Part shown: positions 23,001 to 34,230 of the stretch, one piece after another | Numbering within the stretch: position 1 is the first letter of the stretch | Layout of the letters: every line of letters starts with the position of its first letter | Assembly (NCBI RefSeq): GCF_003003795.1 | Contig: NZ_PVWK01000099.1 | Coordinates: 62,001-126,000, forward strand | DNA length: 64,000 nucleotides | From: Stenomitos frigidus ULC18 | Lineage (GTDB): Bacteria > Cyanobacteriota > Cyanobacteriia > Leptolyngbyales > Leptolyngbyaceae | Reading direction: 5' to 3' | The notes under the pieces: generated by a model | Databases searched by the model: none | Seen by the model: only the letters and a program-made list of their open reading frames with translations | Told to the model about the DNA's origin: nothing | Made by a program: the position numbers and the translations under genes

Positions 23001-24707
23001 GTCACTCCAGAGTACCTGATGAGTGCCAAGCAGCTTGAAATCAAGATGGCTCAGGGTGCAAAGCCTGGTGAAGGGGGACAACTTCCTGGCCCTAAAGTAA
23101 GTCCCTATATTGCGCTGTTGCGTCGATCGAAACCCGGTGTAACGCTGATTTCGCCGCCGCCGCACCATGATATTTACTCGATCGAGGACTTAGCCCAACT
23201 CATCTTTGATCTGCATCAAATCAATCCCGAAGCGCAGGTGTCGGTCAAGCTGGTAGCAGAAGTGGGGATCGGCACGATCGCGGCGGGTGTTGCCAAAGCA
23301 AACGCCGATATCATCCAGATCTCGGGTCACGATGGCGGGACGGGTGCATCACCGTTGAGTTCGATCAAGCACGCAGGTAGCCCGTGGGAACTGGGGCTAA
23401 CGGAAGTGCATCGGGCGCTGATGCAAAACGAATTGCGCGATCGCGTCTTGCTGCGCGTGGATGGTGGCATCAAAACGGGTTGGGATATAGTGATGGCGGC
23501 TCTCATGGGTGGCGAAGAATTTGGCTTCGGCTCCATTGCGATGATTGCAGAAGGTTGCATCATGGCGCGGATCTGTCATACGAACAATTGCCCAGTGGGG
23601 GTGACGAGTCAACGTGAAGAACTCCGCAAGCGGTTCCCTGGCATGCCCGAACAGGTGGTCAATTTCTTCTTCTTCATTGCCGAAGAAGCCCGATCGCTGC
23701 TGGCAAAACTCGGCTACCGTTCGATGAACGACATCCTTGGTCGAGCTGATCTGCTGAAAGTGCGGGAGGACGTGACGCTGCCCAAAACCCAAAGCTTGAA
23801 CCTCAACTGCCTGACGCAGTTGCCCGACACACGGGACGATCGCGCCTGGTTGGTGCATGAAACCGTACACAGCAACGGCTACGTCCTGGACGACGAGCTT
23901 TTGAGCGATCCAGATATTCAGGCATCGATCGCGAACCAGTCCAACGTTACTAAAGCGATTGATGTGGTGAATACGGATCGGACGATCGGCGCACGAATCG
24001 CAGGGGCGATCGCTCGTCAGTACGGCAACAGCGGCTTTGGTGGGCACATCACACTCAACGTCAAAGGTAGCGTGGGTCAAAGCTTCGGAGCGTTCAACCT
24101 CCCCGGTATGACGCTCAACTTAGAAGGTGAAGCCAACGACTATGTCGGCAAAGGCTTACACGGCGGCACGATCGTCATCGTGCCACCGGCGGCTGCGACT
24201 TACAGTCCATCGGACAACGTCATCATCGGCAACACCTGTCTCTATGGGGCAACGGGCGGTACACTGTTTGCCTATGGTCAAGCCGGTGAACGCTTCGCCG
24301 TCCGCAATTCCAACGCACAGGCAGTCGTTGAAGGTGCTGGGGATCACTGCTGCGAATACATGACAGGTGGCGTGGTTGTCGTACTGGGTCACACAGGACG
24401 TAACGTGGGCGCAGGGATGACAGGCGGTTTAGCCTACTTCCTGGATGAAGACGGCAGTTTCCCTACTAAAGTGAACCCAGAAATTGTGAAAGTCCAACGG
24501 GTGATTGCACCTGCCGGAGAGCAGCAGTTAAAGGAGTTGATTGAAGCACATGCCGATCGCACGGGTAGCCAAAAAGCCAAAACCATCCTGGCGAACTGGG
24601 CTGAGTACCTACCTAAGTTCTGGCAGCTTGTACCACCCTCTGAAAAGGACTCACCCGAAGCAAACCCCGAAGCGGTAACTGAAAAAGTGCTGACTCCAGC
24701 GCAGTAA
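20046..24707 (+). CDS. gltB: glutamate synthase large subunit, probably ferredoxin-dependent (GlsF)
   Basis: Makes two glutamates from glutamine and 2-oxoglutarate in the GS-GOGAT cycle. The 1553 residues hold four domains. The first is an N-terminal glutaminase with the nucleophile Cys in RDACGVGFI after a ~30-residue propeptide. A central domain follows. The FMN-binding synthase domain has [24 protein letters not shown] and [18 protein letters not shown]-terminal beta-helix ends the protein ([21 protein letters not shown]). The 3Fe-4S cysteines are in [15 protein letters not shown]. No gltD lies alongside and the length fits, so ferredoxin is the likely electron donor; the NADPH form cannot be excluded. 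An NtcA-type site lies upstream. Confidence 0.95.
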
Positions 24708-24730
24708 GTCAGTCAAGGCTTGAGTGAAAT

Positions 24731-24790
24731 GAAAAAGCGCCAGTAAGGTGAGTCATGTCCCAGCAAGCTCGCCTTCGGTGCTTTTTCTTT
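24731..24790 (+). terminator. probable terminator after glutamate synthase
   Basis: Nested complementary arms GAAAAAGC...GCTTTTTC and AAGGTGAG...CTCGCCTT (one wobble) form a long hairpin starting 23 bases after the stop. It is followed by TTTAT. Confidence 0.7.
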
Positions 24791-24880
24791 ATGACATTAT
24801 TTGTACTGGCAATAGGATGATGCTCTGAGTCTAATGAAGCAGTTCTTGGGGCAAAGGATAAAATTCGCTAAGATCAAGGC

Positions 24881-25174
24881 ATGAAATTTGAGTGGGATCA
24901 GCAAAAGAACCAGGCAAACATCGTAAAACATGGGCTTGACTTTGCAGATGCACCCAAAATTTTCAGACTACCGCTCCGTGTTTCCCTTGATGAACGGCAA
25001 GACTATGGGGAGGAGCGATGGATTGGCATCGGCATACTTGACGGACGGGTTATGGTGATCGTTTTCACAGAACCAGACGAGCAAATTATCCGTATTCTTT
25101 CACTTCGCAAAGCTCTGCCTTATGAACGAAAACGCTATGAACAGTTCCTCAAAAACGAATTGGGAGAAGGTTGA
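24881..25174 (+). CDS. brnT: BrnT family toxin
   Basis: A 97-residue DUF497/BrnT ribonuclease-type toxin. Its N-terminus FEWDQQKNQANIVKHGLDFADA is the family signature (FEWDxxKNxxNxxKHG). It continues with DERQDYGEERWIGIGIL and the core RIISLR-like RILSLRKALPYERKRYEQFL, with conserved Arg and His/Glu residues. BrnT cleaves RNA and is neutralised by BrnA. The downstream antitoxin frame overlaps its 3' end by about 50 bases, the normal brnTA order. No damage is visible, so the pair should be functional. Confidence 0.92.
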   Translation: MKFEWDQQKNQANIVKHGLDFADAPKIFRLPLRVSLDERQDYGEERWIGIGILDGRVMVIVFTEPDEQIIRILSLRKALPYERKRYEQFLKNELGEG

Positions 25175-25388
25175 CTTCCTCACGGACGAGGAAATTGATA
25201 CCTCTGATATTCCGCCATTAACTGAGGAATTTTTCAGCAAGTCGCGGTGGTGGAAACCTGCAGCGCCATTGAATGTCCTTGTGCAAGTCGATCCCAGCAC
25301 ACTCGCTTGGTTTCAAGCTCAAGGTAAGGATTACGAAAAGAAAATGGCTGCGGCATTACGGATCTATGCAGAAGCTCACAAACTATAG
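25122..25388 (+). CDS. brnA: BrnA family antitoxin
   Basis: An 88-residue antitoxin; the second Met (25137, MNSSSKTNWEKVDFLTDEEIDTSD) is an equally good start. The stretch TDEEIDTSDIPPLTEEFF and the C-terminal ribbon-helix-helix-like part VLVQVDPSTLAWFQAQGKDYEKKMAAALRIYAEAH are typical of BrnA. It binds BrnT and, as a DNA-binding complex, usually represses its own operon. It overlaps brnT, implying translational coupling. Confidence 0.88.
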   Translation: MNENAMNSSSKTNWEKVDFLTDEEIDTSDIPPLTEEFFSKSRWWKPAAPLNVLVQVDPSTLAWFQAQGKDYEKKMAAALRIYAEAHKL

Positions 25389-25564
25389 TCAAACCCAGTA
25401 CGATCGCCGATTACGTCGGAAGGATAAAGATCCTGGCTTTGACAGTAAACCTTAAGCATTTCCACATGGCGCTGGAGGTTCTAGAGTAAAGAAGCTATAC
25501 ATTTTGAGGAAACAAGCAGAATGGTAAATTGCTTGCATACGCACAAAATGAGGTCTTGCAGTCT

Positions 25565-25771
25565 ATGAGCTTTAATGATGTAGTCGAGGTAATCAAGAAT
25601 CTTTCTACAGATGAGAAGCGTGAAATTCAACTATTGTTGAGCCAATACCTGCGTGAGGAACGCCGTGATGAGATCTATAGCAACTTTAAGCTGGCGCAAA
25701 GCGAGCAGCAAAACGGTGAACTGACGTTTTCCTCCAATCTCAAGGAACTGAGGCAACTGCTAGAGGAGTAA
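25565..25771 (+). CDS. orphan antitoxin-like protein of a decayed RelE-type module
   Basis: A 68-residue protein from the ATG at 25565 (MSFNDVVEVIKNLSTDEKREIQLLL), with GAGG 11 bases upstream; an in-frame TTG at 25529 is a weaker start. It is a charged, helical protein of the type found as antitoxins in cyanobacterial type II modules. The frame of a RelE-like toxin begins 1 base after its stop but is interrupted by an amber codon. It may still act as an anti-toxin for related toxins, or be neutral residue. Confidence 0.7.
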   Translation: MSFNDVVEVIKNLSTDEKREIQLLLSQYLREERRDEIYSNFKLAQSEQQNGELTFSSNLKELRQLLEE

Positions 25772-25772
25772 C

Positions 25773-25889
25773 GTGGAAGTCAGTTTCAGTTCGACCTTCA
25801 AACGTGTTTTCAAAAAGCGCATTCTAGGCAATACCGATCGAGAGGCAAGATTTTAGCAAAAACTGGAACAGTTCACCGTAGATCCACCT
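25773..25889 (+). pseudogene. RelE/YafQ-like toxin remnant with amber stop and 3' truncation
   Basis: From a GTG one base after the antitoxin stop, the frame reads VEVSFSSTFKRVFKKRILGN then TDREARF, a TAG at 25854-25856, then QKLEQFTVDPP. This looks like the start of a cyanobacterial RelE-type toxin (usual pattern SFSSSFKRAFKK ... EARFWQKLE). TAG sits exactly where a Trp codon (TGG) is expected. After about 38 codons the similarity stops, so the catalytic C-terminal half is missing. The AIPR gene begins ~60 bases later. Confidence 0.72.
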
Positions 25890-25947
25890 GCTGAAGCTAG
25901 AGCAAACATTTTCTATTTTGAGATGGCAAAATATTTTCTTAGACAAT

Positions 25948-27720
25948 ATGAATCCACCAACACTTCAAGAATTCTCCTTAATTAGAACTAAAACAGACAG
26001 AAAACGGCAAGATTATGCTTTTCCTGATCTTACATCCGCTTTCTACTTCGTTGTTATAGATCTAATTCTTGGATTGCAAGAAGATGAAATACGAGACTCT
26101 ATAACAGATAGTAACTTTTTGAAAATTTCTAATCAACCATCTGGTCACGATAGAGGGATAGATGCTCTTTACATTGATGAGATTTCTGCACCCTCAACAG
26201 TTCATATGTTCAACTTTAAATATGCAGAAAACTTTGACAAAGCAAAGAGCAATAACCTTCCTTCGGGAGAAATCGATAAAATATTAGGCTTTATAAATGC
26301 ACTGAACCAGAAAGATGCAGCCTTACCTCAAGAAGTTAATGCAGTATTATCCTCGAAGGTTCAAGATATTTGGAGGCTATTTGAAAACGGCGATCCTAAG
26401 TTTATCCTTCATTTCTGTGCAAACTACTATAAAGGTTTTGAAAAAGCCGAAAGAGGTAGGCTTGAAAGAAGTGTTGGCAGAAATGTAGAAATCAAATATC
26501 ATTTGATGCCAGATTTATTTGAATCTATAGTTTCTAAAGATAAGCAAATAGTAGATGGAAGAATCAAGGCTATTAATACAGGTTTTTTTGAGAAATCTGA
26601 CGGGAATATTCGCGCCCTTATTGTAAATGTAGATGCAAGGGATTTAATAAGGATCGTTATTGACAACGAAGAGGTAAGAAGCAAAGCGGATATGACAAAT
26701 GATGAATATGAGGTGATAAAAAAATCAACTCTTCTGGAAGATGCGTTTAATGACAATGTGAGAATTTATCAGAAGAAATCATCAATCAATAAAAACATAA
26801 AATCTACAGCATTATCAGACGAAAACAGCAAATTCTTTTATTACAATAATGGCGTCACTTTGACATGTGATTCCTTTTCCTATTCTGACAGGCGCGCCCC
26901 AGTTATAGAGTTAAAAAATGTGCAAGTCGTAAATGGAAGTCAAACAATACATTCTTTGTACGAAGCCTTTTTGGAAGATTCAAGTAAATTTCGTGATATT
27001 GAGATTCTTTGTCGTATATGTGAAGTCAGAGATCCCGCTTTAAGTACGAGAATCGCAGAGTATACAAACAGTCAAAATCCTGTAAAGAGCCGAGATATAA
27101 GATCTGTAGACTTTATACAGCTAAGTTTGGAGAAAGAATTTCTCGTAAACGAAAAATTTTACGAGCGAAAGAAAAATCAGTATGCTGAAAAGCCTTTGAA
27201 TCAAAGGATAGATGCGGAAAAAGCTGGACAGGTTCTTATGGCTTTCTTTAACCGCTCTCCCTACGAAGCCAAGAACAGAAAAGGATTAATTTTTGGCGAC
27301 AAGTACGAGGAGGTTTTCAATGAAGAGGTCAATGCTGATAAAGTTTGGCTTGCATATAATCTTTTTGAGAAAATAGAATCGGAAAAAAATAAGATTAAAT
27401 TAGAAATCGTAGGTGATCAGTTATTATTTAGAAATAAGTCGTACATTCTTCATGCTTCTTACTACATACTTTATGTGATAGGAGAGCTTGCTAGACGAAA
27501 TAAAATCGAATTAAAATATTCTAACTTTCAGGAAATTTGGAGCCTTTACTCTGACTCAGTGAGTGTGATCGAAGCAACTATTGCCAAAGAACGAAGTGAA
27601 GTAGGTCAAAAGTATAATCACTCAACGTTTTTCAGATCAAACAAAAGTAAAAAATATTTTGAAGACTTGGAAGAAGTAGAGCTACTCAAGCTTCTAAGTT
27701 TAAGTGACATGAGTGTCTAA
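25948..27720 (+). CDS. AIPR (abortive infection phage resistance) family protein
   Basis: A 590-residue protein from the ATG at 25948 (MNPPTLQEFSLIRTKTDRKRQDYAFPDL); an upstream in-frame TTG at 25918 is less likely. The AIPR-family core is at about residues 300-350: FFYYNNGVTLTCDSF and VQVVNGSQTIHSLYEAF. It continues with IAEYTNSQNPVKSRDIRSVDFIQ. An N-terminal restriction-like region (GHDRGIDALYIDE; VHMFNFKYAE) resembles a PD-(D/E)xK-type fold. The gene is visibly A+T-rich and poor in HIP1 sites compared with its neighbours, suggesting recent transfer. AIPR proteins are linked to abortive infection and restriction systems. It is flanked by toxin-antitoxin remnants. Confidence 0.85.
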   Translation: MNPPTLQEFSLIRTKTDRKRQDYAFPDLTSAFYFVVIDLILGLQEDEIRDSITDSNFLKISNQPSGHDRGIDALYIDEISAPSTVHMFNFKYAENFDKAKSNNLPSGEIDKILGFINALNQKDAALPQEVNAVLSSKVQDIWRLFENGDPKFILHFCANYYKGFEKAERGRLERSVGRNVEIKYHLMPDLFESIVSKDKQIVDGRIKAINTGFFEKSDGNIRALIVNVDARDLIRIVIDNEEVRSKADMTNDEYEVIKKSTLLEDAFNDNVRIYQKKSSINKNIKSTALSDENSKFFYYNNGVTLTCDSFSYSDRRAPVIELKNVQVVNGSQTIHSLYEAFLEDSSKFRDIEILCRICEVRDPALSTRIAEYTNSQNPVKSRDIRSVDFIQLSLEKEFLVNEKFYERKKNQYAEKPLNQRIDAEKAGQVLMAFFNRSPYEAKNRKGLIFGDKYEEVFNEEVNADKVWLAYNLFEKIESEKNKIKLEIVGDQLLFRNKSYILHASYYILYVIGELARRNKIELKYSNFQEIWSLYSDSVSVIEATIAKERSEVGQKYNHSTFFRSNKSKKYFEDLEEVELLKLLSLSDMSV

Positions 27721-27794
27721 ATATGTTGTTGACTTTGTTTTTTAGAAGGCTGAATTTCTGATTCCTAATCCACTACTCAGATAGATGGAGGCTT

Positions 27795-28031
27795 ATGATT
27801 TCAGTCAATGAAGCTCAACAGCAGCTACAGGCTTTGATCGATGCAGTGAGCGAGTCGCATCAACCCGTTGTGATTGAAGGACACAATAGCAACGCTGTTC
27901 TATTATCTGAAGCTGATTGGGCTTCGGTACAGGAAACGTTGTATCTTCTCTCAGTGCCAGGGATGCGGGAATCGATTCGAGAGGGGTTGGCAACACCGAT
28001 CGAGGAGTGTGATCGGGCACTAGAGTGGTGA
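27795..28031 (+). CDS. Phd/YefM family antitoxin
   Basis: A 78-residue antitoxin. MISVNEAQQQLQALIDAVSESHQPVVIEGHNSNAVLLSEADWASVQETLYLLS is the standard Phd/YefM fold, and the C-terminal tail GMRESIREGLATPIEECDRALEW is the toxin-binding region. GGAGG lies 5-10 bases before the ATG. The partner YoeB-like toxin overlaps its stop but is cut short after 25 codons. It is now an orphan antitoxin unless a matching toxin exists elsewhere. Confidence 0.9.
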   Translation: MISVNEAQQQLQALIDAVSESHQPVVIEGHNSNAVLLSEADWASVQETLYLLSVPGMRESIREGLATPIEECDRALEW

Positions 28032-28105
28032 GTTGGAATCTGGTCTATACCAAACAGGCACAGAAAGATGCCAAAAAGCTGGCCTCTAGTAATTTACGAA
28101 CGTAG
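28028..28105 (+). pseudogene. YoeB/Txe-like toxin remnant, truncated after 25 codons
   Basis: A GTG overlapping the antitoxin stop starts VSWNLVYTKQAQKDAKKLAS and then SNLRT before TAG at 28103-28105. The beginning is the highly conserved N-terminus of YoeB-type toxins (WxxVYTKQAQKDAKKL). Intact members are about 85-90 residues, and the catalytic Arg, Glu and His all lie in the missing part. The following ~130 bases up to tex do not resume the toxin in any frame I can see. Confidence 0.8.
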
Positions 28106-28234
28106 CGCCCTTCGCCATAGATTGATGGTTTCAAACGTGCGATCGCTTGAGCAAAGTGCGATCGACTCAAAGCGTATCCCACATCCGCGACTCAAAGTCA
28201 GACTATCCTAGAAAAGCTGATGTAACGAACTGCA

Positions 28235-33171: not shown

Positions 33172-34230
33172 ATGGTACAAGCACCCCCACGTTTAGACGC
33201 TATCCATAGCGTTGAAAGAGCTTTTGAGCCGAGTGTCGATCTGCACTTTCGGTTACCTAATCCAGAGGATGAGCAGATCCCAGAGCTGGAGTTTCAGGAG
33301 CAGGTGGAGCAGGCGTGGCAGGTGTGCGATCGCTTCGACCTGCAAACCGATATCTGGCGGGGACGGATCTTACGGGCAGTGCGCGATCGCGAAAAGCGAC
33401 ACGGCGATGGACGTGGTACAGGCTTCCTCAACTGGCTAAAAGATCGGGAGATTAGCAAAAGCCAAGCCTACGCCATGATTGAGCTGGCGAACAGCGCCGA
33501 TACGCTGCTGGATGGCGGCTATCTGGAACCCGAAGATGTCAACCAGTTTAGCAAACGGGCGTTTGTCGAAACGGCACACGCCGCTCCAGAAGTGCAGCAA
33601 ATGGTGAGTGAGGCGGCTCATCGGGGCGATCGCATTACCCGTCGCGAAGTTCGTCAGCTCTCTGACGACTGGACTGCGATGACATCAGATTTATTGCCAA
33701 CCGAAGTGAAGCAAAAAGCCGCTGATCATACGATTCCGGCAAAATACCTTGCTCCACTGGTCAAAGAAATGCAGAAGCTGCCAGAGAGTCACCAAGTCTC
33801 GATTCGGGATGCCGTTGCGGAAACACCCGATGTCGATACGTTGAAGCAAGCCACCTCTGAAGCCCGTTACCTGTGGCGCTATCTGGAAGCCGCTACGAAT
33901 GTACAGGCACTGAATAATGAGTCGCTTGATCTAGAACTGGCGCTGGAAGAAGCGCTCCGTCTCGGATGCCTCAGTTCCGCTGCCGATCTGGTCAACCATG
34001 CTGCCCAGCTTGAACAAACGGTGACGAAGCTTTATCTCACCTGGAAGCGTCTCAATGCTCTGTCCGAGCGGCTCTATCTTGATAGCGGTGCGAGTTCTCC
34101 CCATTTACGCACGCTGCTTAGCTGTCTTGCGCCCCTCTCTGGCGACATCATTGAAACCTCTCTAACAGGTGGGGGCGATCGCACCATTCGGTTACAGGTG
34201 CTATCGAATGCAGACGTGGATATATCCTAA
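33172..34230 (+). CDS. conserved hypothetical protein, possible DNA-binding
   Basis: A 352-residue soluble protein that I do not recognise as a named family. Residues ~75-150 (GTGFLNWLKDREISKSQAYAMIELANSADTLLDGG and then ITRREVRQLSDDW) look like a ParB/KorB-type helix-turn-helix with a following helical domain. A coiled region and a helical C-terminal part (LEQTVTKLYLTWKRLNALSERLYL) follow. The N-terminus is acidic and Pro-rich. It has normal cyanobacterial codon use and HIP1 sites. Its stop overlaps the convergent membrane-protein gene by 4 bases. A DNA-binding or segregation-related role is a guess. Confidence 0.7.
   Translation: MVQAPPRLDAIHSVERAFEPSVDLHFRLPNPEDEQIPELEFQEQVEQAWQVCDRFDLQTDIWRGRILRAVRDREKRHGDGRGTGFLNWLKDREISKSQAYAMIELANSADTLLDGGYLEPEDVNQFSKRAFVETAHAAPEVQQMVSEAAHRGDRITRREVRQLSDDWTAMTSDLLPTEVKQKAADHTIPAKYLAPLVKEMQKLPESHQVSIRDAVAETPDVDTLKQATSEARYLWRYLEAATNVQALNNESLDLELALEEALRLGCLSSAADLVNHAAQLEQTVTKLYLTWKRLNALSERLYLDSGASSPHLRTLLSCLAPLSGDIIETSLTGGGDRTIRLQVLSNADVDIS

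Follow-up and report, generated by a model that had tools for sequence, protein, structure and literature searches.

The interval between gltB and tex of Stenomitos frigidus ULC18, located in the 64,000-nucleotide stretch of DNA analysed here (the window; contig NZ_PVWK01000099.1, positions 62,001 to 126,000), is probably a mosaic of independent mobile modules at a junction, with two recently lost toxins and an intact AIPR gene of nuclease-type defence. From gltB to tex, the intact pair BrnT-BrnA comes first, then an antitoxin with a cut YafQ/RelE-like toxin behind it, the AIPR gene, and finally a Phd/YefM antitoxin with a cut YoeB toxin. The island genes are closely spaced on the common forward strand, and the identities of gltB and tex are borne out by Pfam matches. 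A preliminary description of this DNA had named the BrnT-BrnA pair, the two antitoxins with broken toxins and the AIPR gene, and all of them are present where it placed them. The parts are all familiar, the decay is of a recognized type, and the island is ordinary overall.

The inserted stretch was delimited by blastn against the congeneric loci. Similarity stops at 24706-24716, next to gltB, and restarts at 28182-28198, some 50 bases short of tex. The complete inserted patchwork at the synteny breakpoint (24717-28182) is present in a single copy in its own genome, and in six congeneric genomes neither the DNA that follows gltB nor that preceding tex shows significant similarity to it. The comparison of the gltB-tex interval among relatives, which the preliminary description had suggested, gave no conserved neighbourhood: the two genes are found on different contigs in six genomes of the genus and are adjacent in none of them. 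Since the six congeners lack the stretch at this place and have gltB and tex apart, the adjacency of the two genes in S. frigidus is a rearrangement junction filled by modules. The window contains no tRNA, and neither notable repeats nor a second genomic copy mark the arrival of the modules.

Comparison with relatives divides the stretch into four blocks, BrnT-BrnA at about 24820-25391, antitoxin-toxin at 25502-25886, the AIPR cassette at approximately 25887-27743 and Phd-YoeB at 27744-28101, with the cassette taken from the end of the toxin similarity to the start of the Phd/YoeB similarity at 27744. The GC contents of the modules are 45.6, 43.1, 34.6 (coding part of AIPR) and 47.2%, respectively. 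The AIPR gene has a GC of 34.6% and a GC3 of 30%; in gltB and tex these values are near 54% and 59%. The sharp borders, the differing compositions, and the stretch and adjacency unique in the genus support an assembly of the modules by horizontal transfer. Before tex, at 28134-28169, lies a short segment with many GCGATCGC-like sites. It resembles the DNA upstream of phd in congener G004 (L191:424-459, 89% over 36 bases) and is possibly a dispersed HIP1-rich repeat. An open reading frame of 352 aa near tex, at 33172-34230 of the window, has no Pfam match.

BrnT is a ribonuclease toxin and BrnA is its antitoxin and repressor. The BrnT of the island (24881-25174, + strand, 97 aa) matches PF04365 over the full profile (2.7e-24) and is 82% and 75% identical to BrnT of two other genomes, G050 and G011. 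BrnA (25122-25388, + strand, likely start 25122 or 25137) scores 25.9 bits with PF14384, where the cut-off is 26.1; its assignment also uses the collinearity of its full 88 residues with BrnA proteins from intact pairs, including that of L282, to which it is 78% identical. Both proteins are full length and adjacent, which places them in the BrnT-BrnA type II family, and the pair is intact, as had been proposed. The toxin-first order and the full length of both genes are the same as in known pairs, with no notable difference.

The first orphan antitoxin (25565-25771, + strand, 68 aa), the start of which is better placed at 25565, is open. Its relatives, found at 29 loci with 65-79% identity, precede a YafQ/RelE-like toxin, and this toxin is intact in 21 of the 28 classifiable loci. 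An intact toxin relative is above the cut-off of PF15738 (YafQ_toxin) and, at 3e-11, below that of TIGR00053. In the island the toxin is not intact and is represented by a remnant of 37 codons (25773-25886, + strand), the 3' half of which is gone. The remnant starts with GTG at 25773 and carries an in-frame TAG at 25854-25856, codon 28, which is Trp in nearly all relatives. The DNA similarity to about 20 other loci ends jointly at 25885/25886, that is, at codon 37-38 of 88. Besides the stop, two unusual replacements are found, and the remnant has rank 15 of 20 in replacement fraction, while the antitoxin has rank 10 of 20 in the same comparison of relatives.

The Phd/YefM antitoxin (27795-28031, + strand, 78 aa; PF02604, 3.8e-17) is also open. 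In congener G004 (locus L191), an antitoxin paired with an intact YoeB shares 92% identity with it. The YoeB remnant (28025-28105, + strand), recognized by its match to this intact YoeB, retains about 25 of 88 codons and ends with TAG at 28103-28105; the DNA similarity to the congeneric pair stops at 28101, where unrelated pre-tex DNA begins. The 25 residues of the two YoeB sequences are identical, with 7 silent and no replacement differences, so selection acted on the YoeB of the island during most of the period since the split. In Phd, 10 silent and 3 replacement changes fall on the S. frigidus branch and 10 and 2 on the partnered branch; the former looks like the branch of an antitoxin with a partner. 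The omega of Phd against L191 is 0.055.

Both pairs have the same antitoxin-first order as YefM-YoeB and YafQ/RelE-like type II pairs, intact relatives of which are found in many cyanobacteria. They differ in that the toxins are cut at the module boundaries and the pairs are, by their sequences, no longer functional. Since the ends of similarity coincide with these boundaries, both toxins are read as severed at module edges, the first one carrying a nonsense codon in addition. The earlier reading of an orphan antitoxin with a broken RelE-like toxin and a Phd-like antitoxin with a broken YoeB-like toxin thus stands: at both pairs the toxin is cut and the antitoxin is still open. The intact toxins that were to be sought for the two antitoxins exist in relatives, including the YoeB of G004.

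The asymmetry between toxin and antitoxin loss was counted in about 390 genomes of the class, ranked by antitoxin or by toxin similarity, with the best 30 or so loci considered in each search. Anchored on the antitoxin, 7 of 28 loci of the YafQ/RelE-like family and 12 of 29 loci of the YoeB family have a broken or absent toxin. Anchored on the toxin, the antitoxin is broken in 1 of 29 and 3 of 30 loci, respectively; of the three counted as 'broken' in the YoeB family, two are perhaps only divergent. The Fisher p-values of 0.025 (YafQ/RelE-like) and 0.0074 (YoeB) ignore kinship, and the counts are a sample of related loci with some modules counted from both anchors. Among the relatives the toxin breaks are of many kinds and at various sites. 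The possibility that the truncated toxins are conserved short peptides was rejected, the relatives being intact or broken differently at other sites.

Independent small modules, moving horizontally, probably settled at the rearrangement junction between gltB and tex, and the YafQ/RelE-like and YoeB toxins recently lost their 3' parts where each module meets the next sequence, AIPR or the pre-tex DNA. Toxins would break first because the antitoxin cannot be lost while the toxin works. The geometry of the operons is likely to contribute: antitoxin-first operons expose the toxin at the downstream edge, where damage would strike it, and the toxin-first BrnT-BrnA pair is intact. Both toxin losses look recent from the sequence differences, that of YoeB because its remnant differs from the intact congeneric copy by silent changes only. 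The antitoxins would still be open because little time has passed. Toxin-antitoxin pairs usually die in this order, toxin first, and recent decay together with the lethal asymmetry suffices as an explanation. The island shows an early stage of decay along a common route, for which an intact relative is available within the genus, and the present work supplies counts of toxin-first asymmetry for two families.

An alternative is that the toxins were lost and the antitoxins were kept by selection against related toxins on incoming plasmids or phages (anti-addiction). We consider this unlikely. In its favour, experiments on ccd of Erwinia chrysanthemi (PMC2654758) provide a precedent for the principle, the two antitoxins are still open and conserved, as the omega of Phd illustrates, and the state of open antitoxin and broken toxin recurs in many genomes. 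However, this state is common in both families generally, and the toxins were lost too recently for the conservation of the antitoxins to carry meaning; dN/dS is therefore uninformative on their retention, and open antitoxins reveal nothing about later selection. In 72,556 plasmid records, among which cyanobacterial plasmids are likely few, the first antitoxin has no relative, and the plasmid relatives of Phd are distant, the best one being 62% identical on a 1.8-Mb Halomonas record. The broader proposal, that the antitoxins are kept as immunity and that cyanobacteria generally shed toxins to leave 'vaccinating' antitoxins, is slightly more doubtful still.

There is little to recommend a second alternative, in which a role as transcriptional repressors, or in the regulation of BrnTA or AIPR, maintains the orphan antitoxins and the island forms one regulated unit. 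The common strand and the close spacing of the genes would agree with it, but every module is found alone elsewhere, the module base compositions differ, and no neighbourhood common to AIPR and these antitoxins was found. That the truncations are assembly or sequencing artefacts, with intact toxins in the living strain, is the least credible reading: the genome is a draft of 167 contigs and several AIPR relatives from metagenome bins are frameshifted, but both cuts swap the 3' part for other sequence rather than showing single-base errors, they coincide with module boundaries, and the contig runs through.

In the mosaic of independent modules the AIPR gene is probably, on the evidence of its motifs and relatives, the working defence unit. 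It encodes an AIPR/AbiU-family protein of 590 aa (25948-27720, + strand). The ATG at 25948 is taken as the start, rather than the TTG at 25918, because the relatives begin there and share a short upstream stretch. The AIPR domain is well above the family cut-off (PF10592, 4e-41, 142.1 bits compared with 25), and the protein matches the PADLOC AbiU model (7e-47, 158.8 bits). Since every invariant AIPR motif is kept, the gene is intact; it is also A+T-rich, as the earlier description had it. Compared with its relatives, dN is 0.15-0.17 and dS is saturated.

Residues 1-200 of the protein form a nuclease domain of PD-(D/E)XK type, and the C-terminal AIPR domain covers about residues 267-552. In an alignment of 14 sequences, the residues Asp54, Asp68, Asp72 and Lys91 of the N-terminal 200 residues are invariant, and the residue preceding x-Lys in the nuclease motif is N or Q, not D/E. 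The model of the N-terminal domain has a pLDDT of 92, and its best match in the PDB is FokI (E 4.2e-4, prob 1.00), followed by Avs4 (E 0.012, prob 0.91) and the nickase BspD6I (E 0.061, prob 0.44). The search with the whole protein gives a weak FokI match, and the values above come from the domain modelled alone. For the C-terminal fold the model confidence is low in places, and the AIPR profile has no match among the PDB sequences. The alignment and the model fit a PD-(D/E)XK nuclease in which x-Lys follows N or Q. A HEPN domain was ascribed to the N-termini of AIPR proteins in a 2012 paper (PMC3506569); a HEPN RNase domain is rejected here, the model being alpha/beta with restriction-endonuclease matches and not all-helical.

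The AIPR protein probably senses infection through its AIPR part. The N-terminal domain would then cut nucleic acid, most likely DNA, and this would arrest the growth of the phage, possibly at the cell's expense. The invariant catalytic residues are the most useful lead of this work, since the nuclease motif makes the poorly understood AbiU/AIPR mechanism directly testable by single point mutations.

With the AIPR/AbiU family (PF10592; lactococcal AbiU1; RE2010/ELPhiS cargo) the protein shares the invariant KFFYYNNG and NG.QT motifs, and the gene is likewise a mobile single-gene unit. In the founding lactococcal locus AbiU2 adjoins AbiU1, which is not a requirement of the AIPR family. In contrast to that locus, the neighbours here are toxin-antitoxin modules with no AbiU2-type partner, and the relatives have no constant partner either. 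The central AIPR motif region is also shared with MzaE of the MZA system (NF041935, 2.4e-10), but the score of 39.6 bits, compared with an equivalog cut-off of 1050, and the lack of further MZA-like genes adjoining the AIPR gene rule out membership. The PADLOC scan, which covered the island proteins alone, identified no other defence gene between gltB and tex. The term 'defence island' is at most a fair one for the AIPR gene, and perhaps for the three toxin-antitoxin modules beside it.

The closest relatives, 72-75% identical, are found in two cyanobacterial metagenome genomes (L082 and L083), and those at 44-48% in Pedobacter, Clostridia and other bins and one viral contig. Their neighbourhoods are each different, with a VapBC-like toxin-antitoxin pair, an argJ-like gene, or type I restriction genes and an ATPase; beyond the PIN domain these names are read from the sequences. 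A relative in Salmonella prophage RE2010 (33% identical over 90%) is a cargo gene standing by itself, with the annotation 'prevents superinfection'. The AIPR gene is thus a stand-alone gene that occurs in differing contexts, including a prophage. At the 72% identical relative in a Pseudanabaena bin (L082:4290-7268), the VapBC-like pair is upstream and a toxin-less small antitoxin-like gene is downstream. In three of the closer relatives (L083:5013-6774, L088:4190-5931 and L090:5007-6780) the AIPR gene is split by a frameshift or stop, possibly through error in these metagenome contigs. An AIPR-domain protein of about 584 aa is also found in some 70 Thaumarchaeota genomes (L091-L161, except L096, which is Pelagibacteraceae), about 30% identical to residues 266-470 of the window protein. 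By this distribution the gene looks widespread there, and may be a core rather than a mobile defence gene.
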